NCBI GenBank assembly: GCA_019635575.1
Contig: JAHBZF010000013.1
Span: forward strand, 1-44,683
DNA from: Pseudolabrys sp.
Lineage (GTDB): Bacteria; Pseudomonadota; Alphaproteobacteria; Rhizobiales; Xanthobacteraceae
Direction: 5' to 3'
DNA length: 44,683 nucleotides
Every line of letters begins with the position of its first letter. Position 1 is the stretch's first letter. The notes beneath the pieces were generated by a model. That model saw only the letters and a list, made by a program, of their open reading frames with translations. It did not search any database and was not told where the DNA came from. Positions 26,693-42,921 of this stretch are shown here, one piece after another. The position numbers and the translations under genes were made by a program.

Positions 26693-26735
26693 CTGTCCAA
26701 CAACAATTGATGATGCGGCTATCGGGCCGCCCGAT
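26693..26735. promoter_or_regulatory. Shared LysR-type operator, copy 3 (amidase/lysR spacer)
   Basis: CTGTCCAACAA at 26693-26703 and the inverted repeat ATCGG-GCCGC-CCGAT at 26721-26735. The spacing between the two parts is identical to copies at 35013-35055 and 42877-42919. Outside the conserved blocks the copy has diverged (29 of 43 positions match copy 2). The repeat fits T-N11-A. It faces the amidase gene (minus) and also overlaps the region upstream of the lysR start, a classic layout for target activation plus autoregulation. Confidence 0.65.
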
Positions 26736-26770
26736 GGCTGCCCCCGATTCCACCCTTGAACGGACGAGAA

Positions 26771-27688
26771 ATGGCATCCCAGATCGAGCTTTGGATGGAG
26801 ATCAGGCAGATTCGCTACGCGCTTGCCGTCGCCAGCGAACGCAGCTTCACCAAGGCCGCCAATCAGCTCAACATCACCCAGTCGGCGGTGTCCGAGCAGA
26901 TCAAGCTGCTCGAGACCCGCATCGGCTTTGACCTGTTCCGCCGCACCAGCCGGGGCATCGAGCAGACCGAGCGCGGCCGGATGTTTCTCTACGAGGCCGA
27001 GCACGTCTTTTCCGACCTGATGAAGCTCGGCGATGTGGCTCGCCGCCTGAGCGGCGCCGATGTGGAATCCCTGGTGCTCGGCATGGGATCTGGCCTCGCG
27101 CCCGCGCTGATCCCGTGTCTGTTTCCGCGGTCACCCTTCCCGTCCAATCTTCATCTGGAAATCCGCACCACGCCGACCCGGCTGGTGTTCGATGCGCTGT
27201 GCGAAGACAAGATCGACCTCGGGCTCGTGGTCGATGTCGGACCGGACCGCGTGCCGACCGGCCTGGTCGGAACGCCGCTGCTGACGCTGGATTTCACCTT
27301 GATCCTGCCCAAGGCGCATCCGCTGGCCGAAGAAGGCCGCGCCATCGACATAGCCATGCTCGCGCATGAGCCGATCATCATGAACGAGTTGTCGATCGGC
27401 TATGGCCAGATCGTCCACAAGATGTTCACCGATCTGGGGATCCAACCGCGGATCCGCGCCATCGTCGACAACGTCGAGACCATCAAGATGATGGTGCAGA
27501 CCGGAACGGGGATCGCGATCATTCCGACCGGATCGGCCGACGACGCCATCAAGCTCGGCTTGATCGAGCAGCGCCCGATCGGCAATGCCGCGACGATGAC
27601 GATCAGCGCCTATCACTCGCGGCAGGCGCTGTCCCGCCGCAAGAAAACCCTGATCAACTGGCTGCTGCAACCGGCCGGCAAAGCCTGA
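26771..27688 (+). CDS. LysR-family regulator, likely controller of the catabolic island
   Basis: 305 residues from the ATG at 26771 (a TTG at 26756 is also in frame). The helix-turn-helix covers about residues 10-60: IRQIRYALAVASERSFTKAA, NQLNITQSAVSEQIKLLETR. An effector-binding domain follows (LVLGMGSGLAPALIPCLF..., DKIDLGLVVDVGPDRVP, NVETIKMMVQTGTGIAIIPT). It is divergent from the amidase with operator copy 3 in between. The same element upstream of operons A and B suggests it also controls the barbiturase-like and molybdenum-hydroxylase operons. The effector is unknown. Confidence 0.9.
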   Translation: MASQIELWMEIRQIRYALAVASERSFTKAANQLNITQSAVSEQIKLLETRIGFDLFRRTSRGIEQTERGRMFLYEAEHVFSDLMKLGDVARRLSGADVESLVLGMGSGLAPALIPCLFPRSPFPSNLHLEIRTTPTRLVFDALCEDKIDLGLVVDVGPDRVPTGLVGTPLLTLDFTLILPKAHPLAEEGRAIDIAMLAHEPIIMNELSIGYGQIVHKMFTDLGIQPRIRAIVDNVETIKMMVQTGTGIAIIPTGSADDAIKLGLIEQRPIGNAATMTISAYHSRQALSRRKKTLINWLLQPAGKA

Positions 27689-27724
27689 GCCTGGTGCCAC
27701 GGATCATCCTCAATCCGCGTCGGC

Positions 27725-27750
27725 GGCGAGCGGCGCAATCGCCGCCCGCC
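27725..27750. terminator. Hairpin between convergent lysR and LVIVD genes
   Basis: GCGGCG-CAAT-CGCCGC at 27730-27745, extended by four further pairs (27725-27728 with 27747-27750) across one mismatch. It sits in the 76-base convergent spacer and could serve both strands, although no T-run follows on either. Confidence 0.4.
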
Positions 27751-27764
27751 CTCATCACCACAGG

Positions 27765-28877
27765 CTAAATCCGCTCGAGGATATAGAAGCCGCGCGAGCG
27801 GTCGATCAGATAGATCAGCCCACGTGAATCGTAGCAGACGTCGTTGCTCTGCACGCGCGTGGCCCCTTCCGGCACCGGCGGCATGAATGAAGCGACCTGC
27901 TTCGGTGCATGCGGGTTGGCGATATCGACGATCCGCAAGCCGCGCGCGAACCAGGCGATCGGAATCTCGGTGCTGCGGATATCTTCGCAGAACTGATGCA
28001 GACCGGTGTAGTCCTCTTTCGGCAAACCGTCTTCATCCTCGACCTGGAAACTCGCAAACGGCATCGGCCGGGTTTCATCGGTGATATCGACCAGCCACAG
28101 GAACGACGGCGATGTCGGACCGGCCAGCCGACCCACATCCTCGTCCGCGACCAGCATGACGCGGCGGCCGCGCAGCAGGAACGGCACCGGCAGCGCCGTG
28201 TGCGTCGGCCACGGAAACGGCGGACTCCAGTCGAGACCGGAGACGAACTTCGGCTTGGTCATGTCATCGATGTTGAGAATGACAAAACCGCCGTGCCAGT
28301 AACTGGTATAAAGGCGATTGCCGACGCGCATCGGATGATGACAACGATGGTCCGTGCCCTTCCAGGTCGGCGTTTCACCGCCCGCCGCCCATTGGCCCGG
28401 CATCCACCACCGGCCGACTTCTTCCGGCTTGTCGGGCTTCGCGAAATCGATGATCTGGACGATGTTGCCGAGATACCCGTCCATTTCCGGAGAGCCATAG
28501 ACATAACGTCCGTCGAACGTGAAGCGGTGCATGCCCCGCGTCTGCCACGTCGCGATATGCCGCGGTTTCGACGGTGTTGAGACGTCGAAGACTTCGAGGC
28601 CGCCCTTGAAATCCGGGTCCTTGCGACCGATCGGGTAAACCTCCCGGTTGACCAGCATCACGTCGTTCTCGACGCGAACCTTATGCGACAGCGTTTGTTC
28701 CGGGGTTTTGACCTCGGCAATCAGACGCGGCTTGGAAGGATCGCTGATATCGACAATCGACGTTCCGTTCGGCGGCTTGATGTGGCCGACATAAGCGGTG
28801 TTCTTGTTGACCACGATCTGCCCGCCGCCGGGGCAATCGAAGTAACCGACGATGCGCAATCCATCGATATGAGACAT
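27765..28877 (-). CDS. LVIVD-repeat beta-propeller protein, operon A copy
   Basis: 370 residues, no signal peptide, so cytoplasmic. Repeats with SIVDISDPSKPRLI, LEVFDVSTPSKPRHIA, VQIIDFAKPDKPEEVGRW, FVILNIDDMTKPKFV, LRIVDIANPHAPKQVAS mark beta-propeller blades of the LVIVD type. Six histidines (H32, H65, H117, H181, H226, H294) line up with six in the paralogue at 35901-37133. Such His sets in the centre of a propeller often bind a metal, as in SBP56-like proteins, so this may be a metalloenzyme rather than a scaffold. GGAG precedes the ATG by 8 bases. Last gene of operon A, 59 bases after the CodA-like gene. Confidence 0.85.
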   Translation of the reverse strand: MSHIDGLRIVGYFDCPGGGQIVVNKNTAYVGHIKPPNGTSIVDISDPSKPRLIAEVKTPEQTLSHKVRVENDVMLVNREVYPIGRKDPDFKGGLEVFDVSTPSKPRHIATWQTRGMHRFTFDGRYVYGSPEMDGYLGNIVQIIDFAKPDKPEEVGRWWMPGQWAAGGETPTWKGTDHRCHHPMRVGNRLYTSYWHGGFVILNIDDMTKPKFVSGLDWSPPFPWPTHTALPVPFLLRGRRVMLVADEDVGRLAGPTSPSFLWLVDITDETRPMPFASFQVEDEDGLPKEDYTGLHQFCEDIRSTEIPIAWFARGLRIVDIANPHAPKQVASFMPPVPEGATRVQSNDVCYDSRGLIYLIDRSRGFYILERI

Positions 28878-28936
28878 TGATCAAACTCCAGATCGTTTTT
28901 GTTGTTGGTTCTGCAGACGGCCGAGCGCCGTCCGTA

Positions 28937-30199
28937 TCAGTTGTCCTGCCAGTGCAACTTCCGCTCGGTGACCGTTTCGGCGACGACACGTCCATTCTTG
29001 ACGACGAAAAGCCGATCGGCCTGCTGCGTGATCGCATCGGCGGCCGACGTCGCGTCCAGGATCACCAGATCGCCGAGGCAGCCGGGCGTCATGCCGTAAT
29101 CGTCGAGCCGCAACAGCTTCGCCGCGTTGCGCGTCGGCATGGCGAAGGCTTCCTCAATCTCAGCCGGTTGACTGAGGTGTGCGGCATGCGCGGTGATGAG
29201 CACCACTTCCAGCGAATCCGCACGGCCGAACGGATAGAACGTGTCCTTCACGCAATCCTGCCCGAACGACACGTTCACGCCTGCCGCGAGCAACTCCTTC
29301 ACACGCGTGATCCCGCGCCGAATCGGTTGTTTGTCGGTGCGACCCTGGAGCATCAGGTTGGTGGCCGGATTTGTGATCATGTTCATGCCCGCCTCCTTGA
29401 CCAGCGCGATCACGCGGGCGGCATAATCGTCCGGATAGGCAGCGAGCGCACAGGTGTGGCCAGAGGTAACTCGCCCGTGCCAGCCGCGCTCGATCGTCAT
29501 CCGCGCGAACATTTCCAGGGTCCGCGCCTGCGGGTTGTCGGTTTCGTCGACGTGCATATCGACGTCCGCATCGTATTTCTGCGCGATGTCAAAGGCGATG
29601 CGGATATGCTCGCGACTGTCCTCCGGCGACGCTTCGTTGAACGGCATGCCGCCGACCACGTCGGCGCCCATTTCCATCGCCTCGTACAGCAGCTTCTCGG
29701 TTCCCGGATTCTTGAGGATGCCCTCCTGCGGGAACGCGACGATCTCCAGATCGATCAGGCCGGCGTAACGCCGCCGCGCCTCCAGCACGCCCTCCAGCGG
29801 CTTCAATCCGCCGATATTGTCCACGTCCACATGCGAGCGCATGCGGGTGACGCCGTTGGAGACCGCGGAGCGGATGACACGCCCGGCCCGCCCGACAATA
29901 TCCTCGACGGTGTAGCGCTTCTTACGCTCCCAGATGATCTCGATCGCTTCCGACAGCGTGCCGGAGACGTTAACGCGAACGTCCTCATTGATGAGCGCCT
30001 TGTCGAGATGAATATGCGGCTCGACAAAACCCGGTATCGCCATCTTGCCCTTGGCATCGATCACGCGCGCGCCATCCGCCATCTTCGCCTTGCCGGCATC
30101 GACATAGCGGCCGCCCGCGAAGGCGAAATCCTGCGGCTTGTCCTTGCCCCACGGGCGCGCATTCTTGACGATGAGATCGACGGGAGCCTGTTCAGTCAT
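28937..30199 (-). CDS. CodA/AtzC-like amidohydrolase (cytosine-deaminase family)
   Basis: 420 residues from the ATG at 30199 (a GTG at 30208 overlapping the ATPase stop is also possible). The active-site layout parallels E. coli cytosine deaminase: His62 and His64 (PHIHLDKA), Gln158 (FPQEG), His216 and Glu219 (DMHVDET), His248 (SGHTC) and Asp315 (FGQDCVKD). The residue after the metal-binding aspartate is Cys316, whereas E. coli CodA has a second Asp that influences substrate choice, so the substrate may not be cytosine. AtzC of the s-triazine pathway belongs to the same group. Sixth gene of operon A. Confidence 0.88.
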   Translation of the reverse strand: MTEQAPVDLIVKNARPWGKDKPQDFAFAGGRYVDAGKAKMADGARVIDAKGKMAIPGFVEPHIHLDKALINEDVRVNVSGTLSEAIEIIWERKKRYTVEDIVGRAGRVIRSAVSNGVTRMRSHVDVDNIGGLKPLEGVLEARRRYAGLIDLEIVAFPQEGILKNPGTEKLLYEAMEMGADVVGGMPFNEASPEDSREHIRIAFDIAQKYDADVDMHVDETDNPQARTLEMFARMTIERGWHGRVTSGHTCALAAYPDDYAARVIALVKEAGMNMITNPATNLMLQGRTDKQPIRRGITRVKELLAAGVNVSFGQDCVKDTFYPFGRADSLEVVLITAHAAHLSQPAEIEEAFAMPTRNAAKLLRLDDYGMTPGCLGDLVILDATSAADAITQQADRLFVVKNGRVVAETVTERKLHWQDN

Positions 30200-30204
30200 C
30201 GCTA

Positions 30205-30972
30205 TCACCCACGAAACCGGCCGAGGAAATTGCGCAGCCGCTCGCTGCGCGGATTGCCGAAAATCTCCGACGGCGGACCCTGCTCGACGATTTCGCCATC
30301 GGCCATGAACACCACGCGATCCGCCACCTCGCGCGCGAACGCCATTTCGTGCGTGACGACGAACATGGTCATGCCGTCGCGGGCGAGGCCCTTCATCACC
30401 CCGAGCACCTCGCCGACCAGCTCCGGATCGAGCGCCGAGGTGACTTCATCGAACAGCATGACCTTCGGCTCCATCGCCAGCGCACGGGCGATGGCGACGC
30501 GCTGCTGCTGACCGCCCGAAAGTTGCGAGGGATAGGCTTCGGCCTTGTCGGCCAGACCAACCTTTGTCAGCAGTTCACGCGCCTTGTCGCGCGCCTGCTG
30601 CGCGGGAATTTTGCGCACGCGCACCGGCGCCTCGATGATATTCTCGATCACCTTGAGATGCGGGAACAGGTTGAACTGCTGGAAGACGATGCCGATCGCG
30701 GTGCGCGTCGCGTTGAGCTTGTGATCGGCGACCTTGACCATCGAGCCGTCCGACCGCTTCTCGTAACCAACCAGCATACCGTCGATCCAGACTTCGCCGG
30801 GACCATAGGGTTCGAGAAAATTCAGACAGTTCAACAACGTGCTCTTACCCGACCCGCTCGGGCCGATGACGCACACCACCTCGCCGGGCTCGACGGTCAT
30901 GTCGATACCCTTGAGGACGTGGAGCGGACCGTATGATTTGTGCAGTCCGGAGACGCGAATGAGATGCGACAT
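30205..30972 (-). CDS. ABC transporter ATP-binding protein, polar amino-acid type
   Basis: 255 residues from the ATG at 30972, two bases after the binding-protein stop. Walker [10 protein letters not shown] at 37-45, Q-loop in [10 protein letters not shown], signature LSGGQQQR at 151-158, Walker [12 protein letters not shown] around 173-182, switch His in VTHEM. Closest in style to GlnQ/HisP. It drives import by the permease at 33104-33757. The ORF extension to 31107 runs into the binding-protein gene and is rejected. Confidence 0.95.
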
Positions 30973-30974
30973 GT

Positions 30975-31766
30975 CTACTTTCCCGCCTCGCCGAACCACT
31001 TGACCTTGAGCGCATCCAGCTCGCCGCTGGCCTTCAGCTTGGCGAGGATGCGATTGACCTCCGCCAGCAAGGCCGTCTCGCTCGGATTCACGTTGATCCC
31101 GACCCATCCAGCGTCGTACGTGCCCGTGACCCGCACCCGCTTGAAGTTCTTGTGAATGAGATATTGCAGCGGCGGCAGATTGCTGATGATCGCATCGATC
31201 CGGCCGATTTCAAGGTCGCGCAAAGCGAGCATCAGCGTGTCGTAGGTTTTCACTTCCTTGACGCCATTGACGCTGCGCGCTTCCCGCTCGCCGGTGGTGC
31301 CGAGCTCGGCGCCCAGTGTCAGGCCGGCCAGTTGATCCTTGGCCTTGAGGTTGGTCCTGTCGTCGCGGACGGCGATGGCCACCGCCGTATCGTAATAGGA
31401 ATTGGAGAAAGCCACCTGCTCGGCGCGCGCAGGCGTATGTGTCATCGCCGAAATCAGGAGATCCACTTTTCCGCTTTTCAGCGCCGGGATCAGCCCCTTG
31501 AAATCCACCACCGAGATATTGGCCTTCACGCCCATTTCGCGGGCGACGAGATTCGACAGATCGATATCGAACCCGACCAGCGTCGCCCCTTCCTTGAACT
31601 CGAACGGCGGATAGACACCTGAATTGGCGATCTTCACCTCGCCGGCCTTCTTGATCTGCTCGAGGGCGTCGGCACGCGCGCCATCGATCGAAACGCTGGA
31701 GAAAACAGCGGCCGCCATCAGCGCGACAGCCAATCCGAGCCTGCTCATTGATCCTGTCGTCGGCAT
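30975..31766 (-). CDS. ABC substrate-binding protein, family 3, operon A copy
   Basis: 263 residues. A signal peptide ([20 protein letters not shown], cleaved after ARA) precedes a family-3 binding domain: [78 protein letters not shown]. It captures the substrate in the periplasm for the permease at 33104. A paralogue is in operon B (38205-38999), while permease and ATPase occur only here. The start may be the ATG at 31766 or at 31748. It lies 6 bases after the preceding amidohydrolase. Confidence 0.92.
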
Positions 31767-31772
31767 GCGTCC

Positions 31773-33107
31773 TCACATATATTTTTTCTGTTGGAAGGCG
31801 CGGAATTCATCCGCTTCGCGCAGCAACGCCTCTTCATCGAACGTCTGTATTTTTCCGTTCCGGACCACCACCCGGCCGTCGATGACGACATGGCGGGCGC
31901 GAATCCCCGCTCCGGCGAACACGATCTGCTGGTGCACGTCGTTGAGCGGGTGCAGGCGCGGATCATTTCCCTCGAACACGACGAGGTCGGCCTTCTGGCC
32001 GGGAGCGATCCTGCCGACATCCTCCATGCCGAACCGTGCCGCTGCCGTGCCGGTGGTCATGGCGAGGATATCGGGCGCGGTCGGCCGCGGACTGACCCCG
32101 GACGTTCCGGGCAGCAGGCTCGCCAGCTTCATCACCTCGAGCATGCTCTGGCTGTCGTTGCTGGCGGCGCCATCGGCGCCCAGCGTCACGGCAATGCCGC
32201 GCTCCAGCATCTCCGGGATCGGCGCGACGCCGCTACCGAGCCGCAGATTGCTCACGGGGTTGTGCACCACCGTGACATCGTGGCCGGCGAGCAGGCTGAG
32301 ATCCACGTCATCGACCCAGACGCAATGCGCCAGGCTCAACCGCCTGTCGAGCAACCCCAGGGAATCGAGATGCCTGATGCTCGAATGACCGTAGATTCCG
32401 TTGGCCTCATGGCGCTGCGATTGATTTTCGTCGACGTGCATCTGCATGAACAGATGACGGTCGGCCGCAATCTCCCCCACCCGCCGAAGCAGCGCGTCAG
32501 TGCAGCGGTGCGGCGCCGAGGGCGCCAGCATGACGGTGATCAGGCTGTCCGGATCATGCCACGTGTCGATCGCGGCACCGAGAAGTTCGGAAATATCGCC
32601 GCCCTTGTCCGTGACCCATGCGGGAACGGACCGGTCGCGCACCATGATCGCGACCGCGCACCGCATCCCCGCCTCGCGATAGGCTGCCACGGCCGCTTCG
32701 ACGGCCTCAAGCCGCATCGGCGTCTGCCGGAAGTGATCGACCACCGCCGTCGTTCCCGAATGCAGCATCTCAGCGCAACCGAGCAGCACCGCGACGCGAA
32801 TCTGCTCCGGGGTGAGTTGATCGAGCGGCGGCCAGACCGCGCCGATCCAGTCCTCATAGATGATGCGGTCGACGACGCCGCGCGCCAGCGTCTCCGGCGA
32901 ATGACAGTGCGAGTTCAACAGGCCCGGCATGACGATGCCGCCGGATGCGTCGAGGGTGTCGCCTCTGACATCGGAGCCGCCGGCCGAGGCGATCAGCCCG
33001 CCCTCGACCACCACATTCTCCCGCATCAGCACCCGCGTCGACGCATCGAGCGTCGCAACGATGCCATTGGCTACGGTCAGCGGCATGTTGCGAGTTACCG
33101 AGGTCAC
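31773..33107 (-). CDS. AtzB/TrzA/SAH-deaminase-type amidohydrolase
   Basis: 444 residues. Metal site: His67 and His69 (NSHCHSP), His224 with Glu227 (QMHVDEN), His261 (LAHCVWVDD), Asp312 (LGADGAASND), plus the family motif HNPVSNLRLGSG. These belong to the ATZ/TRZ group, which removes amino or alkylamino groups (or halide) from s-triazines, adenosine derivatives and other N-rings. The start is a GTG at 33107 overlapping the permease stop in GTGA; the ATG at 33086 is an alternative. Third gene of operon A. The exact substrate cannot be read from sequence. Confidence 0.88.
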   Translation of the reverse strand: MTSVTRNMPLTVANGIVATLDASTRVLMRENVVVEGGLIASAGGSDVRGDTLDASGGIVMPGLLNSHCHSPETLARGVVDRIIYEDWIGAVWPPLDQLTPEQIRVAVLLGCAEMLHSGTTAVVDHFRQTPMRLEAVEAAVAAYREAGMRCAVAIMVRDRSVPAWVTDKGGDISELLGAAIDTWHDPDSLITVMLAPSAPHRCTDALLRRVGEIAADRHLFMQMHVDENQSQRHEANGIYGHSSIRHLDSLGLLDRRLSLAHCVWVDDVDLSLLAGHDVTVVHNPVSNLRLGSGVAPIPEMLERGIAVTLGADGAASNDSQSMLEVMKLASLLPGTSGVSPRPTAPDILAMTTGTAAARFGMEDVGRIAPGQKADLVVFEGNDPRLHPLNDVHQQIVFAGAGIRARHVVIDGRVVVRNGKIQTFDEEALLREADEFRAFQQKKYM

Positions 33108-33757
33108 GGGATAGCGAACCGCTTTTCGAGGCGGGAGACGAACCAGATCATCGGCAGCGTCATCATCAGATACATGAGAGCGACGCCGGCAAACGGGCTG
33201 AACGTGTTGGCCTTCCAGGTCATGACCTCGAGGCCGGACCGCAGCAGTTCGCTGAGCGCGATGGTCGAGACCAGCGCCGTATTCTTGAGCAGCGTGATCG
33301 ATTCATTGGTGATCGGCGGCAGCACACGGCGCACCACCTGCGGCAGGATGATCCGGCGCATCGCCAGGCCGTAGGACATGCCGAGCGAGCGCGCCGCGCG
33401 CATCTGTCCCCGGTCGATCGACTGGATACCGGCGCGGATGATCTCGGCCACATAGGCCGCGTTCGTCACCGCCAGCGCGATCACCGCGACGGTGAACGCG
33501 GACAACTGGAGACCGGCGGACGGCAAGCCGTAATAAAGGAACATCAGCGTGACCAGCAGCGGGATGCCGCGCATCGCGGTGGTGTAAGCCGCCGCCAGCT
33601 TGCTGGTCACCGGATTGGCCGAGACGCGGCCAAGCGCCACGAACAGGCCGAGCGCCAGACCGATCGCCACCGAGATGATGGTGAGTTGAATGGTCAGCCA
33701 GGCGCCGCCGAGGAGCGCGGGGATCGCTTCAACGAAAATATCCCACTGGAAATCCAT
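33104..33757 (-). CDS. ABC transporter permease, HisM/GlnP type
   Basis: 217 residues with about five hydrophobic helices. It has the amino-acid permease start (LLGGAWLTIQLTIISVAIGL) and the EAA loop (YVAEIIRAGIQSIDRGQMRA, ARSLGMSYGLAMRRIILPQV) that contacts the ATPase. Only one permease is present, so it probably works as a homodimer. GGAGGG lies 5 bases before the ATG. It follows the barbiturase-family gene after 75 bases that contain a hairpin, and overlaps the next amidohydrolase by 4 bases. Confidence 0.94.
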   Translation of the reverse strand: MDFQWDIFVEAIPALLGGAWLTIQLTIISVAIGLALGLFVALGRVSANPVTSKLAAAYTTAMRGIPLLVTLMFLYYGLPSAGLQLSAFTVAVIALAVTNAAYVAEIIRAGIQSIDRGQMRAARSLGMSYGLAMRRIILPQVVRRVLPPITNESITLLKNTALVSTIALSELLRSGLEVMTWKANTFSPFAGVALMYLMMTLPMIWFVSRLEKRFAIP

Positions 33758-33780
33758 AACCGCCCTCCGTTGGCCGTCAC

Positions 33781-33832: not shown

Positions 33833-34927
33833 TCACTCACCTGCGTCGATGATAGCAATAACCGGGCCACCGCCATGCGGTCCCTGGTGCATGGCGTCGA
33901 CCGAGACGAACACCGCCGGGTCGCCGATCGCCGCCGCCGCGACGCCGCCCACCGCCGCCTTGGAATGGCGATGGTGATGCACATCGGAATCGTCGAGCAT
34001 GATCTGCCGCCGCCCGCGCAGCTTCGCGCGGTGGTCCGCCTCGCACTTCATGAAGCAGTTGACCAGCTTGCCGTTGAGATCGCTGGCGCGCGGACGCTCC
34101 GGCAGCGACAAGCCCGCATCGCGGATCGCGTCGTAGATGCCGTCGATGTCCAGCGCGTCCTTCATCACGCTATGACCGATCTTGTAGCGCCCGCCGGCGC
34201 CCGCCTTGTTGCCGAGCAGCACGATCTGCGCGCAGTCGAGCTCCACGCCCGACGAGCACGACGCCACCGAGGAATACAGGTCGAGATTGCGGCAGATCTC
34301 CTCCGCCTTCGGCATCGAAATCTCGCCGAGCGCGACGGCGATGCCGAGGCCGGTGGTGCCGTTCGACACGCCCATCGATTCATGCACCTCGCAGAACACG
34401 TCGTGGCCGCGCGACTTCGCATCGTGGATCGTGTCGATGGTCAGCAGCGGCGTCTTGGTCTGGACGTAGTGCACGTCCTTCGGATCGGTGATGCCGGCGT
34501 CCTTCATGGCGCGGCGCACGCCTTCCGCCACCTTCTCCACCATCGCCGGACGGCCGATGTCTTCCGGCAGGATCTGCGGGCTCAGCGCCGTGCCGAGCAC
34601 CAGCCGCGGCGCATTCCCGCTGGCCTTCTTCTTCGTGCGCGCGAACACCGTCGCGTGCGGGGTGATCACGCCGTCGCAGCCGCCCGACCACACCATCGGC
34701 ACCTGGCGGATGTCTTCCTCGCTGCGCGTGCCGTGCCTGGCCAGCACCGCGCGGAACGCCTGGTCGGCGAGAATGCGGGTGAAATCGTTGACGCCGCCGT
34801 TGCCTTCCGTTTTGCCGATAACGGCCACCACCTCGTCCGCCGCGAACTGGCCCGCGCGGATGCACGCCTCCAACCCGGAAGCGTCGGCAACACTCTTGAT
34901 CTCAACCTTGGCGACTTCGATGGTCAT
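33833..34927 (-). CDS. Ring-opening amidohydrolase, cyanuric acid hydrolase/barbiturase (AtzD/TrzD) family
   Basis: 364 residues from the ATG at 34927 (AGGA 8 bases upstream), the normal length of this family. Three homologous units each show the expected Lys and Ser: Lys39 ([10 protein letters not shown]) with Ser81 (VWSGGCDGV), Lys158 (VQTKTPLL) with Ser226 (ASCSSGVEL), Lys294 (CFMKCEADH) with Ser342 (FVSVDAMHQ). The end [13 protein letters not shown] is typical. Family members open cyanuric acid to carboxybiuret or barbiturate to ureidomalonate; which applies here cannot be decided by eye. First gene of operon A, behind operator copy 1. The neighbouring molybdenum hydroxylase favours a barbiturate-type substrate made by oxidation of a pyrimidine. 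Confidence 0.92.
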
Positions 34928-34955
34928 TGCGCAATCCTGTTCCACAAACAACATC

Positions 34956-34981: not shown

Positions 34982-34988
34982 CTCATGG

Positions 34989-35057
34989 CAATCCTCAAAA
35001 GATATGCCGTGAGTGTCCAACAGTGTTTGCTTATGTGCACATCGGCAAATCCGATCC
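34989..35057. promoter_or_regulatory. Shared LysR-type operator/promoter element, copy 1 (operon A)
   Basis: A 69-bp block that aligns without gaps to 42853-42921 (56 of 69 bases identical by my count; 40 of 44 from TGTCCAACA onward). It contains TGTCCAACA, then TGTTTGCTTAT and the inverted repeat ATCGG-CAAAT-CCGAT (35041-35055), which fits T-N11-A. On the minus strand TTGGAC (complement of 35015-35020) could be a -35, which puts the repeat centre near -63, where LysR-type proteins normally bind. It lies between operon A and the divergent gene at 35140. Confidence 0.75.
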
Positions 35058-35139
35058 TCGGATTCCCTGCATTGTGCGATGCGAAAACAAGGGTGCCGCG
35101 TCAGGTCACGCTGCCGCCAAGAGCAGCACATGTCCCGGC

Positions 35140-35904
35140 ATGATTGCAATCAATAGCGAGCCGCGCGATGAAGCACCTGCGATCCTCGCGATGGCCGGAT
35201 ACATGCAACAGAACAGCGAACGCGAGCAAACGGAACCGGTGTCGGTGGTCATCGGCCTGACGACCGCCCCCCGTTCTCGCGACGATATCGTCGGCCCGAC
35301 GGTGCGGATCGAACCATCCTCGCGCAAGCCGCTGCGGCTCAACAATGCCGGCCTCAACCTGCACGGCAAGACGGATGCGGCCGACGCGTTCGCACGGATC
35401 AGGGAGTATCTTCTGGCGCTATGCGGACCGTGGTCGCGACAGCACCATGCGTTTCTCGACGCCTATTTCACGTTCATCGACGCACAATGCGAACAGCATC
35501 GTGCGGAGTTGAACGACGCGCTCGCCGCGTTCGGATCGGTCTACCACTACCGCGATTTCCGGTTCTCCGCGTGGGTTCCGCTGCCGCTGGCCGTGGTGAA
35601 CACATCCGGCGAGCAATCCTTACCGCGATCCGATTTTCTGTTCTGGTCCGGCATGGAATTCATCGCCGTCGAACTGTGCGGCCACACCTCTCGCTCAAAC
35701 GCCCGCGCTCGCGATCTCGCGCTGTTGCAACAGGCGGGCATCAGGATTGTCGACATTCATCTCGGTGCGTTGCGTGCCAACCCCGACGCGCTATTCACTT
35801 CGGTATTTCCGGCGGAATTCTCCCGCTTCTGGGCCGGCGAGCGCTTCCCGAGCGGCCCGGTGAAACCGGGCAACGCCCGCTTCGTCCTCACCCCGCAGTC
35901 TTAG
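35140..35904 (+). CDS. Uncharacterised protein divergent from operon A
   Basis: About 254 residues from the ATG at 35140; starts at 35191 or 35203 are also possible and none has a good Shine-Dalgarno. I do not recognise the protein. The middle is helical and aromatic-rich ([39 protein letters not shown]). The C-terminal part ([20 protein letters not shown] followed by [19 protein letters not shown]) vaguely recalls the DUF559/Vsr-like nuclease fold, with D...ExC where ExK or ExD would be expected, so catalysis is doubtful. Its last 4 bases overlap the end of the convergent LVIVD gene. Codon use looks like its neighbours. Confidence 0.65.
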
Positions 35905-37133
35905 ATATCGGCCTCCAGGATATAAAGGCCACCGGTAAACCGGTCGGCCGCATAGACGATCTGTTGCTCGTCAACGTAGACGTCATTGATCTGCGCCGCG
36001 CCAGCGGGCGAGCCCCTCGGTGCTTCCGGCACGAAGTGAGCGATTTCCGTCGGCTGCAGTGGATCCTCAATGTTGTAGACGCGCACGCCACCATTGAAGA
36101 TCGCCGAGAAGATGATCGTTTCGGAGCGAAACGACGGACCCGGCCGGTTCTCGTGCAGATTGTGCGAGCCGAACCGGCCGCCGCGCTGGGCAAACTCCGC
36201 CACCGGCGGCATCGGCAAGGTGCCGATCGGCACCGGGTTATCTTCCTTGCGGAGATCGACAAGCCAGGTGAGCTTCGGCCAATCCTCGCCACCGTCACGC
36301 ACGCATTCGTCGGAGATCACCAGCAGGTCGCGCTCGATCAGCGGCAACACCGTGTGCATGAAGCCGTTGAACGGCGGCGACGGATTCCACTGCGAGACCG
36401 GCTTCGGCCGGCTCATGTCGGAGATGTCGAGAATGACCATGCCGCCGTCGAGATAGGCCACATAGGCGCGATCCGGACGCTCCGGATACACGTTCGTATT
36501 GTGCGCGCGAAACCCGCTGTCGAATTTCGGATGCCGTGGCGGCGGCGGTGCATCGTCGCCCTCGCGCGTGCCGGGCAACCACCATCGGCCGACCTCAAAC
36601 GGCTTGGTGGGATTGGCAACATCGATGCAGCGATAGAACTGACAATCGAGCCGGTTGCGCGGAACGAAATCCGGCGCGCCGCCGGCGAAGTGGATATAGC
36701 GTCCGTCCACGAACCAGACCTGATGCACGCCCATCGAGTGCGGCCCCGAACAGTCGAAAAACGCGATGGAACGCGGGTTTTCCGGCACGCTGACATCGAA
36801 CAGCTCGATCCCCGCCGGCTCGAGGCCGTGGCCGGGATCACCGAGCCCCTTGGGCCCCAAAGTCTGATAAGCGACCGCGAGGATATCGCCGACGAGGTCG
36901 AGCGAATTGGAACGGACCTTGTTGTGTGGCAGATCGGTCTGCACGATGACGCGCGGATTCTTGAGATCCGTCACATCGACGCCGGTGAAATTCTTCGGCG
37001 GCCCCTCATGTGCCAGCCACATGATGCGTCGGCCGTTTGGCGCCGTCTGGATGATCATACCCTCGCCGATGCCGCCGAACCCGCGCAGCGGGTCCTGGCT
37101 GATCAGGCGCATGTTCTTGATCGACGAAGTCAT
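35901..37133 (-). CDS. LVIVD-repeat beta-propeller protein, operon B copy
   Basis: 410 residues from the ATG at 37133 (AAGGGA six bases upstream; an adjacent ATG at 37136 is also possible). Cytoplasmic, no signal peptide. Blades are marked by GVDVTDLKNPRVIV, IELFDVSVPENPRSIAF, CIDVANPTKPFEVGRWW, MVILDISDMSRPKPVSQW and VRVYNIEDPLQPTEIAHF. Six histidines (H42, H70, H137, H211, H260, H324) align with those of the operon A protein in shared contexts such as GxHxxxxxDGRY and HTxLP. About 40 residues longer, mostly in loops. Last gene of operon B, after the COG0523 GTPase. Confidence 0.85.
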   Translation of the reverse strand: MTSSIKNMRLISQDPLRGFGGIGEGMIIQTAPNGRRIMWLAHEGPPKNFTGVDVTDLKNPRVIVQTDLPHNKVRSNSLDLVGDILAVAYQTLGPKGLGDPGHGLEPAGIELFDVSVPENPRSIAFFDCSGPHSMGVHQVWFVDGRYIHFAGGAPDFVPRNRLDCQFYRCIDVANPTKPFEVGRWWLPGTREGDDAPPPPRHPKFDSGFRAHNTNVYPERPDRAYVAYLDGGMVILDISDMSRPKPVSQWNPSPPFNGFMHTVLPLIERDLLVISDECVRDGGEDWPKLTWLVDLRKEDNPVPIGTLPMPPVAEFAQRGGRFGSHNLHENRPGPSFRSETIIFSAIFNGGVRVYNIEDPLQPTEIAHFVPEAPRGSPAGAAQINDVYVDEQQIVYAADRFTGGLYILEADI

Positions 37134-37150
37134 CATCTGTCCCTTATTTC

Positions 37151-38122
37151 TCAGGTGCCGAGAGCGGCATCCATGGCTTTCTGCAGATCCGGCATGCACG
37201 GATCGTTACCGATGAACACCAGCCGGGTCTCTCGCGCATCATCCGGCCAATGATCGAGCACGGCCGGCGGATAAAGCGTTTTACCGACACAATGCAGAAC
37301 CACGGGACCATCGGCACCTGTGATCCTCACAAACCCCTTCACGCGCAGGATGCCATCTCGAAGCGAGAGCAGTGATTGCAGCCACGCCGCCAGCTCGCCC
37401 CACTCCACCGGATCGGTTCGCCGCACGGCGCTCGACGTGAAATGACTTTGGCCATGCGCGTGATGATGCGCCGCCACGACCGAAACGGCCGTACTCGCCC
37501 GCGCATGGGCGGCTCGCAGCAGGGCATCCGGGTCGATCCGGTCGCGCCGCACATCGTGGATCGCGGCGACCGGGTTGATGCCGGATACCAGAGCGCGCAC
37601 CGCGTCGACCTGCTCGTCCGCAACAAGGTCCGTCTTTGTGATCAGCAGACAGTCCGCAAGCGCAATCTGCCGCTGAACCTCCTCGAACCGGGACAGGTTC
37701 TCCACCACATTCACGGCATCGACTGTCACCAGCAGGCCCGCCAGCGTGAACGTGCGCAGCAATTCCCGATCATCCAGCAGCGTGGACAGGATCGGACCTG
37801 GATCGGAAACGCCGCTGGTTTCGACGATCACACGGGAAAAATGCGGAATTTCATTCAGATCCCGGCGCGAACGCAACAGCAACAGCGTGTCGCGCAGATC
37901 ACCCCGGATCGAACAGCAGATACAACCGCTGCTCAGCAGGATCGGGTCGTCGATCGCGGTCTCGATCAACGCATGGTCGACTGCGACATCGCCGAACTCG
38001 TTGACGATCACCACGGCATCCTTGAAACGCTCGTCAACAAGAACCGCGTTCAGAAGCGTGGTCTTGCCGCTTCCGAGAAATCCGGACAGCACCGTGACCG
38101 GAACAGGCCCTGCTTCAACCAC
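37151..38122 (-). CDS. COG0523 (CobW/ZNG1-like) metallochaperone GTPase
   Basis: 323 residues from a GTG at 38122. The ORF extends to a TTG at 38188, but that would make a 30-base perfect hairpin (38145-38174) coding; starting after it gives the usual short N-terminus before PVTVLSGFLGSGKTTLLNAV. Walker A is residues 14-21, the metal-binding CxCC motif is at 67-70 (SSGCICCSIRGD), followed by ETSGVSDPGP and the TKTDL guanine motif. A His-rich loop (AAHHHAHGQSH) may bind metal. COG0523 proteins deliver zinc, cobalt or iron to client enzymes. The island contains several metal-dependent amidohydrolases and the LVIVD proteins as possible clients. Confidence 0.88.
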   Translation of the reverse strand: MVEAGPVPVTVLSGFLGSGKTTLLNAVLVDERFKDAVVIVNEFGDVAVDHALIETAIDDPILLSSGCICCSIRGDLRDTLLLLRSRRDLNEIPHFSRVIVETSGVSDPGPILSTLLDDRELLRTFTLAGLLVTVDAVNVVENLSRFEEVQRQIALADCLLITKTDLVADEQVDAVRALVSGINPVAAIHDVRRDRIDPDALLRAAHARASTAVSVVAAHHHAHGQSHFTSSAVRRTDPVEWGELAAWLQSLLSLRDGILRVKGFVRITGADGPVVLHCVGKTLYPPAVLDHWPDDARETRLVFIGNDPCMPDLQKAMDAALGT

Positions 38123-38144
38123 TCTCTCGTCCGCTATCCGTTCC

Positions 38145-38174
38145 GAAAGCGACCGGGCATGCCCGGTCGCTTTC
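38145..38174 (-). terminator. Perfect 30-nt palindromic hairpin after the operon B binding-protein gene
   Basis: GAAAGCGACCGGGCA (38145-38159) and TGCCCGGTCGCTTTC (38160-38174) are perfect inverted copies. It lies 31 bases after the binding-protein stop and 23 bases before the GTPase start. On the minus strand only TTTC follows, so it is likely a partial terminator or an mRNA-stabilising stem that raises binding-protein levels above downstream genes. Confidence 0.65.
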
Positions 38175-38204
38175 TTGTTCGCAATCAACTTTCACGCCGC
38201 GGGC

Positions 38205-38999
38205 TCAAAACCACTTCTTGTCGAGCTTGTCCAGGAATCCTTCCTTCTTCAGATCGGCGAGGTGCTTGTTGATCTCGACCCGGAGATCGTCGTCTTCCTT
38301 TCGGATACCCACGGCGATAACCGCGGTGCGCCAGACCTTCGTCAGCTCCAGGCCATCCGACAATCCCTTCATGTTGTAGCGGATCGACGGCAGCGGATTG
38401 ACCACCGCATCGACGCGCTTGTTCTCGAGATCCTTCAAAGCCAGCAGGATCGTGTCGTAGGTTTTCACTTCCTTCACGCCGGGGATGTTCTCGCGCACGA
38501 ACACCTGACCGGATGTACCGATCTGCACGCCGACGACCTTGCCGTTCAAGTCCTGCGGCTCGGCGATCGCGACGCCCTTCGGCTTCGCCGCGCCGATACC
38601 AGCGTCATAATAACTGTCGCTGAAGCCGATCTGTTCCTCGCGCTGCTTGGTCCGGGTCAAGCCCGTGAACAGCGCATCGACACGGCCGGATTTGAGCGCG
38701 GCGACGATGCCCTTGAAGTCGATTTCCTGCCACTGGATTTTGACGTTCATCCGCTTGGCAATCTCGTCGGCAAGATCGATGTCGTAACCGACTGTCTTGC
38801 CGTTCACGACATACTCGAACGGCGCATAGGCCGCCGAAGTCCCGAGGGTGATGGTGCCCGTCCGCTTGATCTTCTGCAGGGTCGTCTCCGCGGACGCGGG
38901 ACCTCCCCATGACAGCGCCGCCGCCGTGATCAAGAGCCCGGCAGTCGTCAGAAAAGCCCGTCGTATCGCACCTGCACGCATGTTGTTGTCCTTTTGCAT
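38205..38999 (-). CDS. ABC substrate-binding protein, family 3, operon B copy
   Basis: 264 residues from the ATG at 38999, preceded by a very strong GGAGGAGGAACA. A signal peptide with RR (MRAGAIRRAFLTTAGLLITA, cleaved near ASA-ETT) leads to TITLGTSAAYAPFEYVVNGK, VGYDIDLADEIAKRMNVK, FKGIVAALKSGRVDALFTGL and EVKTYDTILLALKDLENKRV. It resembles the operon A binding protein and probably feeds the same permease and ATPase with a second ligand, because no other permease is present in operon B. Located 17 bases after the molybdenum subunit gene. Confidence 0.92.
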   Translation of the reverse strand: MQKDNNMRAGAIRRAFLTTAGLLITAAALSWGGPASAETTLQKIKRTGTITLGTSAAYAPFEYVVNGKTVGYDIDLADEIAKRMNVKIQWQEIDFKGIVAALKSGRVDALFTGLTRTKQREEQIGFSDSYYDAGIGAAKPKGVAIAEPQDLNGKVVGVQIGTSGQVFVRENIPGVKEVKTYDTILLALKDLENKRVDAVVNPLPSIRYNMKGLSDGLELTKVWRTAVIAVGIRKEDDDLRVEINKHLADLKKEGFLDKLDKKWF

Positions 39000-39016
39000 T
39001 GTTCCTCCTCCTGTTG

Positions 39017-41353
39017 TCAGTTTCCTTGGCTTCCGGAAGTCGCAGTCGTCGTCATACTCTCTTGCGCGGCGCGCCAAATCCGCACCGGCGTGATCGGCAG
39101 CGTGTTGATCCCGACTCCGAGCGGCGCGAGCGCGGCGGAGACGGCATTAGCGACCGTTGCCGCCACGGCGACGATACCCCCCTCGCCGGCGGCCTTGACG
39201 CCGAGCGGATTGGTGGTCGAGCGCGCGTGCTCAAGCGAGATGCAGTTGATGCTGGGAAAATCGCTGGCCGTCGGCAGCAGATAGTCGGCGAGCGACGCGT
39301 TAAGAAGCTGACCGTCTTCGTCATAAATGAATTCATCGAAGAACGTGCCGCCGAGACCCTGCACGATGCCGCCGATCATCTGCCCGTGGACGATCAGCGG
39401 GTTGATCATACGCCCGACATCCTCCACCGCCCAGTAGCCGAGAACCTTCACCCGGCCGGTTTTGATATCCACCGCGACATGCGCGACATTGGCGCCATAG
39501 CTGTAGGTCAGCTTGGTGTTGTTGAAGGCGCCCTCCACGTCGAGCGCGCGCCCATTCGCCCTCGCCGCGACGGCAAGCTCCACGAGGTTCGTCTGCCGCG
39601 TTCCATCGGCTGAAAAGAACGCACCGTCTCGCCACACGAGTTCTTCGTTCGGACTTCCGAACAGGCCGACAGCCAGCGGACGCGCCTGTTCGATGAAGAT
39701 GCGCGCCGCATCGAGGATCGCGCTGCCGCCCATCACCGCCGCGCGGCCGCCATAGGTGCCGAAACCTTCCGTCAGATCGGTGGTCGAGCCGTGAAACACC
39801 CGGACCGCTTCGGGAGCGATGCCGAGCGCATCGGCGCAGATTTGCGCAAAGGATGTTTCGTGACCTTGACCGAGCGTCGAACAACCCGTGTAGAGATCGA
39901 TCGTCCCGTCGTCAGCGAGACGCAGACGCGTGCATTCGCGCGGCCCCGCGCCGCCGCTCTCCACAAAGCAAGCGACGCCGACGCCATGATGCCACCCATC
40001 GACGACGCGACCGGAGAGCGCGCGCAACCGGTCCCATTCGCTTGCGTCGACCACGCCGTTCAAGGCCAGGGCATAGTCGCCGCTATCATAGGGCGATGTC
40101 GCACTGTTCGGGATCAGCGCGCCGGGATCGTAAGGCATCTCCTGCGCGGTCAGCAGATTGCGCCGGCGCATCTCAACCGGATCGATGCCGAGATCGCGCG
40201 CGGCGATATCGATCATGCGCTCGCGAAAGAAATTGGCCTCGAAACGTCCCGGCCCGCGAAAACTGCCGATCGGCGTCTTGTTGCTGGTGAAGACATTCAC
40301 GTCGCACACGAAATGCGGAATCCGGTAAGGCCCCGGCAGAAAAGCCGCGGTGTTCGACGGCGCCATACTGCCGTTCGTGCGCACATAAGCACCGAGATCG
40401 ACAAAGATACTGCCGGACAGAGCAAGGATCGTGCCATCGGCGCGACAGGCGATCTGCAAATCACAGTCGACCTCGCGCGCGTGGTTGGTGGCCATCAGAT
40501 GTTCGCGCCGGTCCTCGATCCACTTCACCGGACGTTCGAGCGCGCGCGCGGCGAACGGAACGATAAAGTCCTCCGGATAAAACTCGCCGCGCACGCCGAA
40601 TCCGCCGCCGATATCGACCTCGATGAGATCGATTGCCGTCTCGGGAAGACCGATCAATCCGGCGAGGATGCGGCGATTGGCGAACGCGACTTTCGCCGCA
40701 CCCCAGACGCGCAACCGCTGCTGCGCAGCATCCCATTGCGCGACCAGGCCGCGCGTCTCCAGCGGAACGCCGCTGTGACGATGGCAACGCAACCGTTCCG
40801 ACCGGACGTAGTCGGCGCCCGCAAGCACCGCCGGGTCTCCGCGTGTGACGCGATAGGACGACGCGACATTGGTGCCGGCATGTTCATGCAGAACGCTGTC
40901 GCGGTTGGCGGATGCCCAATCGGTTACGGCCGGCAGCGGCTCATAGTCCACCTCGATCCGTTCGAGCGCGTCCTCGGCCCGGTAAGGCGTATCCGCGACG
41001 ACGAACGCGACCGGCTCTCCGACATAGCGCACTTTATCGACCGCGAACGGCGGCTGCAGGAACGACCGCTCGTAGCCCGGCAGCGACGCCGCGCGCATCG
41101 GAATCAGCACCGTTGCGTCGAGATCGCGCGCCGTGAACACCGCTTTGATCCCCGGCATCGCCAGCGCGGCCGAGACATCGATGCTCTTGATCCGTGCATG
41201 CGCCACCGGACTCCGCAGCACCACGCCGTGCAACATCCCGTCGATGGTCACATCGTCGATGTAACGGCCGCGGCCCTTGAGAAAGCGCAGATCCTCCACC
41301 CGCTCGCGCGCGAGCCCGATCGCAGCCGCACGGGTTTCAGCGGATGGCGTCAT
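39017..41353 (-). CDS. Molybdenum hydroxylase, large (molybdopterin) subunit
   Basis: 778 residues of the xanthine dehydrogenase/CO dehydrogenase large-subunit family. The N-terminal a/b hammerhead domain (RFLKGRGRYIDDV..., FVVADTPYRAEDALERIEVD) is followed by the Mo-cofactor domain: VDIGGGFGVRGEFYPED (about 246-262), GSFRGPGRFEANFFRERM (363-380), TLGQGHETSFAQICADALGI and GVKAAGEGGIVAVA with the catalytic Glu724. The CoxL form I loop CSFR is absent, so it is not a carbon monoxide dehydrogenase; hydroxylation of an N-heterocycle is the better guess. It overlaps the Fe-S gene by 4 bases (ATGA). Confidence 0.93.
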   Translation of the reverse strand: MTPSAETRAAAIGLARERVEDLRFLKGRGRYIDDVTIDGMLHGVVLRSPVAHARIKSIDVSAALAMPGIKAVFTARDLDATVLIPMRAASLPGYERSFLQPPFAVDKVRYVGEPVAFVVADTPYRAEDALERIEVDYEPLPAVTDWASANRDSVLHEHAGTNVASSYRVTRGDPAVLAGADYVRSERLRCHRHSGVPLETRGLVAQWDAAQQRLRVWGAAKVAFANRRILAGLIGLPETAIDLIEVDIGGGFGVRGEFYPEDFIVPFAARALERPVKWIEDRREHLMATNHAREVDCDLQIACRADGTILALSGSIFVDLGAYVRTNGSMAPSNTAAFLPGPYRIPHFVCDVNVFTSNKTPIGSFRGPGRFEANFFRERMIDIAARDLGIDPVEMRRRNLLTAQEMPYDPGALIPNSATSPYDSGDYALALNGVVDASEWDRLRALSGRVVDGWHHGVGVACFVESGGAGPRECTRLRLADDGTIDLYTGCSTLGQGHETSFAQICADALGIAPEAVRVFHGSTTDLTEGFGTYGGRAAVMGGSAILDAARIFIEQARPLAVGLFGSPNEELVWRDGAFFSADGTRQTNLVELAVAARANGRALDVEGAFNNTKLTYSYGANVAHVAVDIKTGRVKVLGYWAVEDVGRMINPLIVHGQMIGGIVQGLGGTFFDEFIYDEDGQLLNASLADYLLPTASDFPSINCISLEHARSTTNPLGVKAAGEGGIVAVAATVANAVSAALAPLGVGINTLPITPVRIWRAAQESMTTTATSGSQGN

Positions 41354-41823
41354 GGCTTGCGATTCCCGCCGGCCGCCGCGTCGAGCACGGCCGCGACAAT
41401 CGGCACATAGCCGGTGCAGCGGCAGATATTACCCGAGAGCACGTCGCGTACCCGCTCCGCGGTCAGATCGGATTCACTGTCGATGAGCGCCTGCGCCGTA
41501 ATCAGCATGCCCGGCGTACAGAACCCGCACTGCAGGGCATGATGCTTGCGAAATGCCTGCTGCAACGGTGACAGCTCACCGTCCGGCGCAAGCCCTTCGA
41601 CGGTGACGACCTCGCAGCCATCCGCCTGCACGGCGAACATCAGACAACTCCGCACCGCCTTGCCATCGACCAGCACGGTGCACGCACCGCAGACGCCATG
41701 CTCGCACCCGACATGCGTGCCGGTGAGGCGCAAGGTATGTCGCAGAAAATCGGCGAATGTCAGCCGGGGCTCGATCTCGTGGCTTTCCGCGCGGCCGTTC
41801 ACCTGTACCGTGACGCTCGTCAT
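41350..41823 (-). CDS. Molybdenum hydroxylase, 2Fe-2S subunit
   Basis: 157 residues. The plant-type ferredoxin domain has Cys40, Cys45, Cys48 and Cys60 (GCEHGVCGACTVLVDG, SCLM). The second, four-helix domain has Cys99, Cys102 (CGFCTPGM), Cys134 and Cys136 (GNICRCTGY). All eight cluster ligands are present. It passes electrons from the molybdenum centre to FAD. It shares one base with the FAD gene stop and overlaps the large subunit start. Confidence 0.97.
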   Translation of the reverse strand: MTSVTVQVNGRAESHEIEPRLTFADFLRHTLRLTGTHVGCEHGVCGACTVLVDGKAVRSCLMFAVQADGCEVVTVEGLAPDGELSPLQQAFRKHHALQCGFCTPGMLITAQALIDSESDLTAERVRDVLSGNICRCTGYVPIVAAVLDAAAGGNRKP

Positions 41824-42701
41824 CAGGCCACCTTCTTCCTGCGACCGGATCCGGCGGCGGCGTTCAAGGCGCGCAGCATCAATGTTTCGAGCAGGGCGCT
41901 GCGATATTCCGCCGGCGCGTGCATGTCCGACTTCGGCTCACAGTCCTCGGCAGCGATCCGCGCCGCCTCCACGAGTGTGTCGACTGCAAGCAGGCTGCCG
42001 CGCAGGCAATCCTCGGCGCGCGTCAGATGCAGTGCACGATCGCCGGCGCCGAACGACACCAGCGACGCATCCGCGCAGATGCCATCCGCATCGCGGTCGA
42101 GCAGGACGATCGCGCCTGCGAGCGCGAAGTCGCCGGCGCGGCGGGCAAACTCCTCGAAACCCCAGCCGCGCCGCTCCGGCCAGGCCGGAAACTGGATGGC
42201 GACCAGCATTTCTCCCGGTTCGAGCGCCGTCTCCAGCGCGCCGCGGAAAAACTCGGCTGCCGGCACCGTTCGCATGCCGCGCGCACTGCGCAGCGAGAAC
42301 ATCGCATCGCAGGCGAGCGCCACGGCGGGAAACTCCGCCGCCGGATCGGCATGCGCGCTGCTGCCGCCGACCGTGCCGCGATTGCGGATCTGATAGTGCG
42401 CGATGTGATGCACGGCACATTGCAGCAGCGGATTGTGCCGCGCGACGGCTGTGCTGCTTTCCAGTTCATGCCAGCGCACCAACGCGCCGAGCGTCAGCCC
42501 GTCCGGCGTCACGTCGATGCGCGCAAGCTCCGATATATGATTGATATCGATCAGCAGACTGGGCGATGCCAGGCGGAAATTGAGCATCGGCACGAGGCTT
42601 TGCCCCCCCGCCAAAATCACCGCATCGTCATGGTCAGTAAGTGCGGCAATCGCTTCATCGATCGAGTGAACACGCAGATAGTCGAACGGCGCAGGCTTCA
42701 T
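41823..42701 (-). CDS. Molybdenum hydroxylase, FAD subunit
   Basis: 292 residues, CoxM-like. FAD-binding motifs: AGGQSLVPML (31-40) and TVGGSSAHADP (110-120), with the C-terminal CO dehydrogenase flavoprotein domain after about 180. It accepts electrons from the Fe-S subunit and passes them to NAD or a quinone. First gene of operon B. Its ribosome-binding site is weak (GGGGCATCGGGC before the ATG). Operator copy 2 lies 152-220 bases upstream. Confidence 0.94.
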   Translation of the reverse strand: MKPAPFDYLRVHSIDEAIAALTDHDDAVILAGGQSLVPMLNFRLASPSLLIDINHISELARIDVTPDGLTLGALVRWHELESSTAVARHNPLLQCAVHHIAHYQIRNRGTVGGSSAHADPAAEFPAVALACDAMFSLRSARGMRTVPAAEFFRGALETALEPGEMLVAIQFPAWPERRGWGFEEFARRAGDFALAGAIVLLDRDADGICADASLVSFGAGDRALHLTRAEDCLRGSLLAVDTLVEAARIAAEDCEPKSDMHAPAEYRSALLETLMLRALNAAAGSGRRKKVA

Positions 42702-42735
42702 GCCCGATGCCCCAGGCCGTCACCCCGGAGCCAGG

Positions 42736-42760
42736 AGCATCGAACGATGCTGTTGCAACA
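42736..42760. other. Two short palindromes in the operon B leader
   Basis: AGCATCG-AA-CGATGCT (42736-42751) and TGTTGCAACA (42751-42760) lie side by side, 35-59 bases upstream of the FAD-subunit start. They could be a leader stem-loop or a protein site. Neither occurs upstream of operon A. Confidence 0.35.
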
Positions 42761-42852
42761 AACAGCGATCTTCACGGCATCGATTGCCATCGCGAATCCT
42801 CGCGCTGCGATTTACATCCGCCGTCATGCGAATTTTATGAGCGACCTTCAGA

Positions 42853-42921
42853 CAATCCTCATAAGATGCCGCACGGCTGTCCAACAATGTTTGCTTATTT
42901 GCGTATCGGCAAATCCGATCC
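42853..42921. promoter_or_regulatory. Shared LysR-type operator/promoter element, copy 2 (operon B)
   Basis: A 69-bp gap-free match to copy 1 (34989-35057), with TGTCCAACA (42878-42886), TGTTTGCTTAT and ATCGG-CAAAT-CCGAT (42905-42919). This copy also has a perfect ATTTGC-N6-GCAAAT (minus strand) overlapping the main inverted repeat. TTGGAC on the minus strand (complement of 42879-42884) is a possible -35. It faces the molybdenum hydroxylase operon. Confidence 0.75.

Follow-up and report, generated by a model that had tools for sequence, protein, structure and literature searches.

The window analyzed here, the whole 44,683-nucleotide stretch of contig JAHBZF010000013.1 from Pseudolabrys sp., carries three copies of a composite element, TGTCCAACA-N18-ATCGG-N5-CCGAT, which, judging from comparison with related genomes, are very probably LysR-type activator promoters belonging to one regulon. 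Exact matches read on the + strand lie at 26694-26735, 35014-35055 and 42878-42919, always with a spacer of 18 bases, and neither exact TGTCCAACA nor exact ATCGG-N5-CCGAT occurs anywhere else in the window. In 100 shuffled windows, the mean number of matches with no more than three mismatches was 0.02, and no shuffle reached three matches. The exact matches confirm the three identically spaced copies described in an initial annotation of this DNA, which had located the sites correctly and placed their starts one base early (correctly 26694, 35014 and 42878). A 69-bp ungapped alignment of copies 1 and 2, also described there, did not hold, in-register identity being only 33/69; copies 2 and 3 agree at 51/69 positions and can be aligned over about 80 bp with 82% identity. 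The sites and the adjoining regulator gene are the following.

26694..26735, promoter strand -: site 1, with palindrome 26721-26735, -35 box TGGACA 26694-26699, weak -10 box AAGCTT at about 26670-26675 and predicted start at about 26663; it lies between the amidase gene and lysR1 and points at the amidase; genome G127 has the same site with one base changed
35014..35055, promoter strand -: site 2, with palindrome 35041-35055, -35 box TGGACA 35014-35019 and weak -10 box at about 34990-34995; 5' of the barbiturase-like gene; counterpart in G127
42878..42919, promoter strand -: site 3, with palindrome 42905-42919, -35 box TGGACA 42878-42883 and weak -10 box at about 42854-42859; 5' of the molybdenum (Mo) hydroxylase operon; counterpart in G182; G095 has analogous sites before Mo-hydroxylase operons
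26771..27688, + strand: lysR1, LysR-type regulator with HTH_1 and LysR_substrate domains; candidate binder

The layout of the element was examined in 39 aligned sites (of 40 collected, one with a flank truncated at a contig end was excluded; near-identical genomes kept full weight). Conserved columns comprise the palindrome (1-15), ATC (22-24), AAT or AAA (28-30), a -35 box (37-42) and a -10 box (61-66), with 18 bp between the two boxes and T at column 66 in 36 of the 39 sites. The -35 box is TGGACA in the window genome and of the TTGAC type in 19 of 27 sites outside the window genome, G182, G127 and G092. The palindrome is of the T-N11-A type, as had been proposed, and its centre falls near -65 when the start is placed from the -10 box at the usual spacing. 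The LysR recognition site is described as a T-N11-A palindrome usually centred near -65, with an activation site overlapping the -35 box (PMC12016517). The conservation thus corresponds to the standard LysR promoter layout around a putative operator, which supports the earlier assignment of a LysR-type operator at the standard promoter position. That assignment had tentatively taken TTGGAC as the -35 box and put the centre near -63; a -35 box is present, and its register was one base out relative to TTGACT in the relatives, the aligned hexamer being TGGACA and the centre about -65.

The genome scan proposed along with the annotation was carried out on the window assembly (3.83 Mb, 83.6% complete, 5.4% contamination). 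The separate parts are common there, TGTCCAACA at 20 places (reversed control 17) and the palindrome at 27, whereas the complete element was found at five places at up to three mismatches (reversed control, one match). The two additional copies (sites 4 and 5) are on contig C134, one 5' of a second barbiturase-like gene and the other between hyuA and a second LysR gene, lysR2, so that these sites adjoin lysR2, hyuAB and a barbiturase-like gene 99.6% identical to the window copy. The near-twin genome G182, with a listed completeness of 100%, likewise has both LysR loci on its own contigs, which speaks against an artefact of binning. In the genome_contigs collection (84,980 species), the exact element occurred at eight places in four genomes, seven of them in three Rhizobiales metagenome-assembled genomes (MAGs) and the eighth in a gammaproteobacterial MAG, where the variable bases are unlike those of the other places. 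Scanning the bacterial family at up to two mismatches gave 29 places (reversed control 4); all 13 with zero or one mismatch are inside the catabolic loci, as are six of the 16 with two mismatches, the other ten being elsewhere.

The element is strongly, though not perfectly, coupled to one branch of LysR proteins. Of 296 genomes sampled from the family, 29 contained homologues of the window LysR (E<=1e-60), and the loci of 30 of the 31 matches were examined. As the motif of the initial annotation was made from the window alone, independently of the relatives' genomes, its search in these loci is a non-circular test. The motif was found in 28/30 loci at up to five mismatches, in 25/30 at up to four and in 18/30 at up to three, compared with 11.6%, 1.7% and 0.1% of Markov-resampled loci (900 at the four-mismatch cut); since 11.6% of resampled loci match at the loosest cut, the two tighter cuts are the better test. 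Twenty of the 25 loci found at up to four mismatches are outside the window genome, G182, G127 and G092. The element closely follows the lysR stop codon in the wider family; the window genome and its three closest relatives carry it 5' of lysR, in the divergent gap.

A generalised pattern, run on 80 chosen genomes, detected 40 places in 30 of them (reversed control 0): in 28/29 with the LysR branch, in 2/14 that have a barbiturase-like gene of close kin (74-84% identical) and no LysR match, and in 0/37 with neither, ten of these 37 having a distant family member (42-45%). Since these loci had also served to build the pattern, its recall in them follows by construction; independent evidence comes from the 0/37, an extra place in G095 and four later-fetched LysR loci, and the held-out loci carry the element in 4/4 cases at no more than one mismatch. 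As a spacing control, a pattern with one extra N was found in 0/296 genomes. Maps were made of 24 loci from relatives (L085-L108), some of them truncated at contig ends, including one of the seven without a barbiturase-like gene; hyuA is present in 23, hyuB and an NMT1-type ATP-binding cassette (ABC) solute-binding protein in 22 each, the barbiturase-like gene in 17, and an amidase with >=50% identity in 15. The element is directly 5' of hyuA in 23/24 and beside lysR in nearly all; in G033 it is 2.8 kb from lysR yet still directly 5' of hyuA, and in G171, the sole mapped locus without hyuA, it lies about 1 kb before transporter genes. Every site on the locus maps faces downstream catabolic genes, and a regulator gene adjoins a candidate regulated promoter in the window locus, nearly all mapped relatives and the held-out loci. 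An order-level search (query G208 LysR, E<=1e-70) found the LysR branch in 2/297 genomes, its own included, and LysR1 had no match among plasmids at E<=1e-40.

Several observations weigh against a LysR-controlled regulon. The -10 boxes of all five sites of the window genome look poor by eye, and sites 2 and 3, with their shared block of about 80 bp, are duplicates of each other rather than independent examples. In G185 and G149, a site precedes hyuA though no LysR match was found at E<=1e-60. These two belong to the 14 genomes with a close barbiturase-like gene and no LysR match, for which the loci of 13 were examined (all but G162). Contig ends truncate six of these; four are readable 5' of hyuA, with a site in G185 and G149 and none in G218 and G161, and G010, G291 and G115 showed neither a hyuA match beside the barbiturase-like gene nor a site at up to three mismatches. 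Conversely, G079, whose LysR is 40% identical, has no site, and G425, from outside the family (LysR 48% identical to the order-level query), has only a three-mismatch candidate near lysR. The core recognition helix QSA(V/I)S(E/D)Q is nevertheless present in both, as in 32/32 aligned proteins, and therefore this helix alone does not predict a site. In addition, the present data do not distinguish LysR1 from LysR2, and the barbiturase-like gene is common rather than universal in the mapped loci, which weakens the deduction of pathway and substrate.

The claim of a single regulator lacks support in this form, as the paralogue LysR2 (62% identical to LysR1) has the same core recognition helix and two sites of its own. 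The joining of the three window operons into one regulon is supported by the comparison, with a larger extent than the three sites and about 14 genes proposed, namely five sites and, by strand and spacing, at least 22 genes. DNA-binding domains of the two proteins are 82% identical and ligand domains 55%, and LysR1 and LysR2 probably recognise the same sequence. A division of labour, in which LysR1 acts only on window sites 1-3 and LysR2 only on sites 4 and 5 of C134 without a shared regulon, is conceivable though rather doubtful: G127 combines a lone LysR1-type gene with sites 1 and 2 alone, G092 has a single LysR, closer to LysR2, with sites 4 and 5 alone, and palindrome position 10 is G or C in the window sites versus T in 30/39. 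However, the conserved letters are common to all sites and the recognition-helix regions differ at few, mostly conservative positions, so that separate specificities would have no obvious basis in sequence. An equally tentative idea within the shared regulon is that the duplicated pair, with one DNA code and diverged ligand domains, reads two ring compounds and feeds both signals into five shared promoters; if so, precursor oxidation by the Mo-hydroxylase and ring opening by the duplicated barbiturase-like gene would be inducible by either compound.

Binding by another transcription factor is much less probable. TGTCCAACA is itself a TGT-N3-ACA palindrome, as for a GntR-type regulator, and an IclR-family gene is located near lysR2 on C134. 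However, most relatives no longer have this symmetry (AGTCAAAA) but do keep the -35 letters, which rules out the GntR-type reading, and the IclR protein (tblastn E<=1e-20) was detected in only 2/30 mapped stretches, those of the window genome and G182, whereas a LysR gene adjoins the site nearly everywhere. That the copies are simply duplicated promoter DNA or a dispersed repeat without any regulator is hardly credible: the block shared by sites 2 and 3 would fit duplication, but sites 1, 4 and 5 have little in common besides the conserved letters, and the five copies in the assembly, the eight exact places in the collection and the absence from all 37 genomes with neither the LysR branch nor a close barbiturase-like gene speak against the widely dispersed repeat that the annotation had named as its refutation.

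Under the preferred reading of a LysR-activated regulon, the following mechanism can be proposed. Typical members of the LysR family act as tetramers. Such an oligomer would bind the palindrome of 15 bp, ATCGG-N5-CCGAT, whose centre lies about 65 bp upstream of the predicted transcription start, as well as a weaker downstream half, ATC-N3-AAT, at about -51 to -43, and with inducer would help RNA polymerase at a promoter with a fair -35 box (TGGACA) and a poor -10 box. Activation by polymerase contact would fit the palindrome near -65, the activation site described at the -35 box and the weak -10 box. Predicted targets are the amidase, the barbiturase-like operon and the Mo-hydroxylase operon in the window, and hydantoinase hyuAB-GST and the second barbiturase-ABC operon on C134. 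The likely job of the regulon would be induced breakdown of a cyclic ureide, e.g., uracil or barbiturate, by oxidation, ring opening and amide cleavage. We infer binding, activation, inducer and substrate alike from sequence comparison.

The genes behind the three sites are listed below; co-transcription within the site 2 operon (27765..33757 after atzD1) and the site 3 operon (35901..39077 after the Mo-hydroxylase) is predicted, for the former from spacing and strand.

25231..26643, - strand: amidase of the amidase signature family, predicted target of site 1; a homologue closes the operon in many relatives
33833..34927, - strand: atzD1, encoding a barbiturase-like, ring-opening amidohydrolase (PF09663); leads the site 2 operon
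33104-33757, - strand: permease, named by eye (site 2 operon)
31773-33107, - strand: amidohydrolase (site 2 operon)
30975-31766, - strand: solute-binding protein (site 2 operon)
30205-31107, - strand: open reading frame (ORF) of an ABC ATPase, named by eye, true start probably near 30972 (site 2 operon)
28937-30208, - strand: cytosine-deaminase-like amidohydrolase (site 2 operon)
27765-28877, - strand: LVIVD protein (site 2 operon)
39017..42701, - strand: three-subunit Mo-hydroxylase, first genes after site 3, with flavin adenine dinucleotide subunit 41823-42701, 2Fe-2S subunit 41350-41823 (by eye) and Mo subunit 39017-41353
38205-39077, - strand: solute-binding protein, by eye (site 3 operon)
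37151-38188, - strand: CobW GTPase (site 3 operon)
35901-37199, - strand: LVIVD protein (site 3 operon)

An ORF on the + strand (34927-35904), without a Pfam match at E<=0.001, overlaps site 2 and heads away from atzD1. Beside the amidase, a dihydropyrimidinase/allantoinase-like amidohydrolase (23621-25165, + strand), below the NCBIfam cut-offs, has no exact site of its own. Within the site 3 operon, a 30-base perfect palindrome at 38145-38174, at the 5' end of the CobW frame, may be a terminator or attenuator and may split the operon.

Compared with the loci of relatives, the window island is derived: its barbiturase-like gene, amidase and Mo-hydroxylase operon have one promoter copy each. 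In G095, a further site 5' of a Mo-hydroxylase operon is a weaker match missed by the generalised pattern, and the extra place found by that pattern precedes an amidohydrolase-oxygenase-Mo-hydroxylase operon. The oxygenase, a 2OG-Fe(II) oxygenase (L174, 7707-8762), lies behind a site, between the amidohydrolase and the Mo-hydroxylase. Thymine 7-hydroxylase belongs to the 2OG-Fe(II) oxygenase superfamily, and thus the presence of this gene would fit pyrimidine breakdown.

The closest solved structure to the barbiturase-like protein is a chain named barbiturase. In the AtzD/Bar family, barbiturases (Group VI) are characterized by Asn/His/Lys/Val/Ser-or-Ala at AtzD positions 195/321/325/345/346 and cyanuric acid hydrolases by Arg/Thr/Arg/Gly/Gly (PMC3758960, drawn on, like PMC4051656, for enzyme specificity only). 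The window copy, in a by-eye reading of the alignment, has N/H/K/V/D, i.e., four of five positions as in Bar; H, K, V and D are kept in 33/33 homologues from the fetched loci (position 195 is outside that count), Asp thus replacing Ser/Ala at 346 in all. Cyanuric acid hydrolase and its pathway are ruled out by these positions, although the NCBIfam model CyanAcHdlAtzD passes (453.8 vs. a 360-bit cut-off), and an isonicotinate/citrazinate pathway was dropped, as the literature search gave no useful support. Oxidative pyrimidine or other cyclic-ureide breakdown is the probable pathway, a cyclic ureide being the putative substrate, with the Mo-hydroxylase possibly acting as a uracil oxidase.

Among known systems, the oxidative pyrimidine pathway with barbiturase in Rhodococcus resembles the present one, with its barbiturase-like enzyme, an amidase and an oxidising enzyme, but the Asp at 346 is different and hyuAB is extra here, being more constant than the barbiturase-like gene. 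AtzR is a LysR-type regulator, tied, as here, to a ring-opening amidohydrolase of the AtzD/barbiturase family. The atzDEF operon of Pseudomonas sp. ADP is inducible and its expression requires atzR (PMC4362333). In contrast, the window enzyme is barbiturase-like by its specificity residues rather than a cyanuric acid hydrolase, the neighbours are hyuAB, the NMT1-type ABC transporter and the Mo-hydroxylase, and there are several dispersed sites and two regulators; AtzR was compared at the level of its description. The BhbR1 promoter of Pigmentiphaga kullae H8, a typical LysR promoter whose sites were protected in footprints, shares the 15-bp T-N11-A palindrome, the usual centre near -65 and the activation site over the -35 box, but has another palindrome sequence and serves another pathway, and BhbR2 of the same organism binds another sequence and is described as a typical MFTF, read here as MarR-type (PMC12016517), whereas the window genome has two LysR paralogues and one operator type. 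No description of a LysR regulator of barbiturase or hyuAB loci was found in a search of openly licensed papers, which is a weak negative.

The control circuit is well supported but ordinary in kind, with two sister regulators. For one alphaproteobacterial family it provides a ready operator code of a catabolic locus conserved there, lysR-hyuA-hyuB, to which the barbiturase-like gene, an ABC transporter and an amidase are often added, and a compact natural case of two paralogous regulators with one operator sequence. Tying Mo-hydroxylase operons to this locus also narrows the substrate search for a barbiturase-like subfamily with an unusual active-site aspartate.

The barbiturase-like genes of the window (33833-34928) and of L018 (4306-5401) are 99.6% identical over nearly exactly the ORF, with flanks that are not alignable, which points to a recent copying event or to gene conversion; contigs of G182 break at that same gene, so the high identity may instead be an assembly effect. 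Elsewhere in the window, a 24-base perfect A+T-rich palindrome is present at 15306-15329 in this G+C-rich contig.

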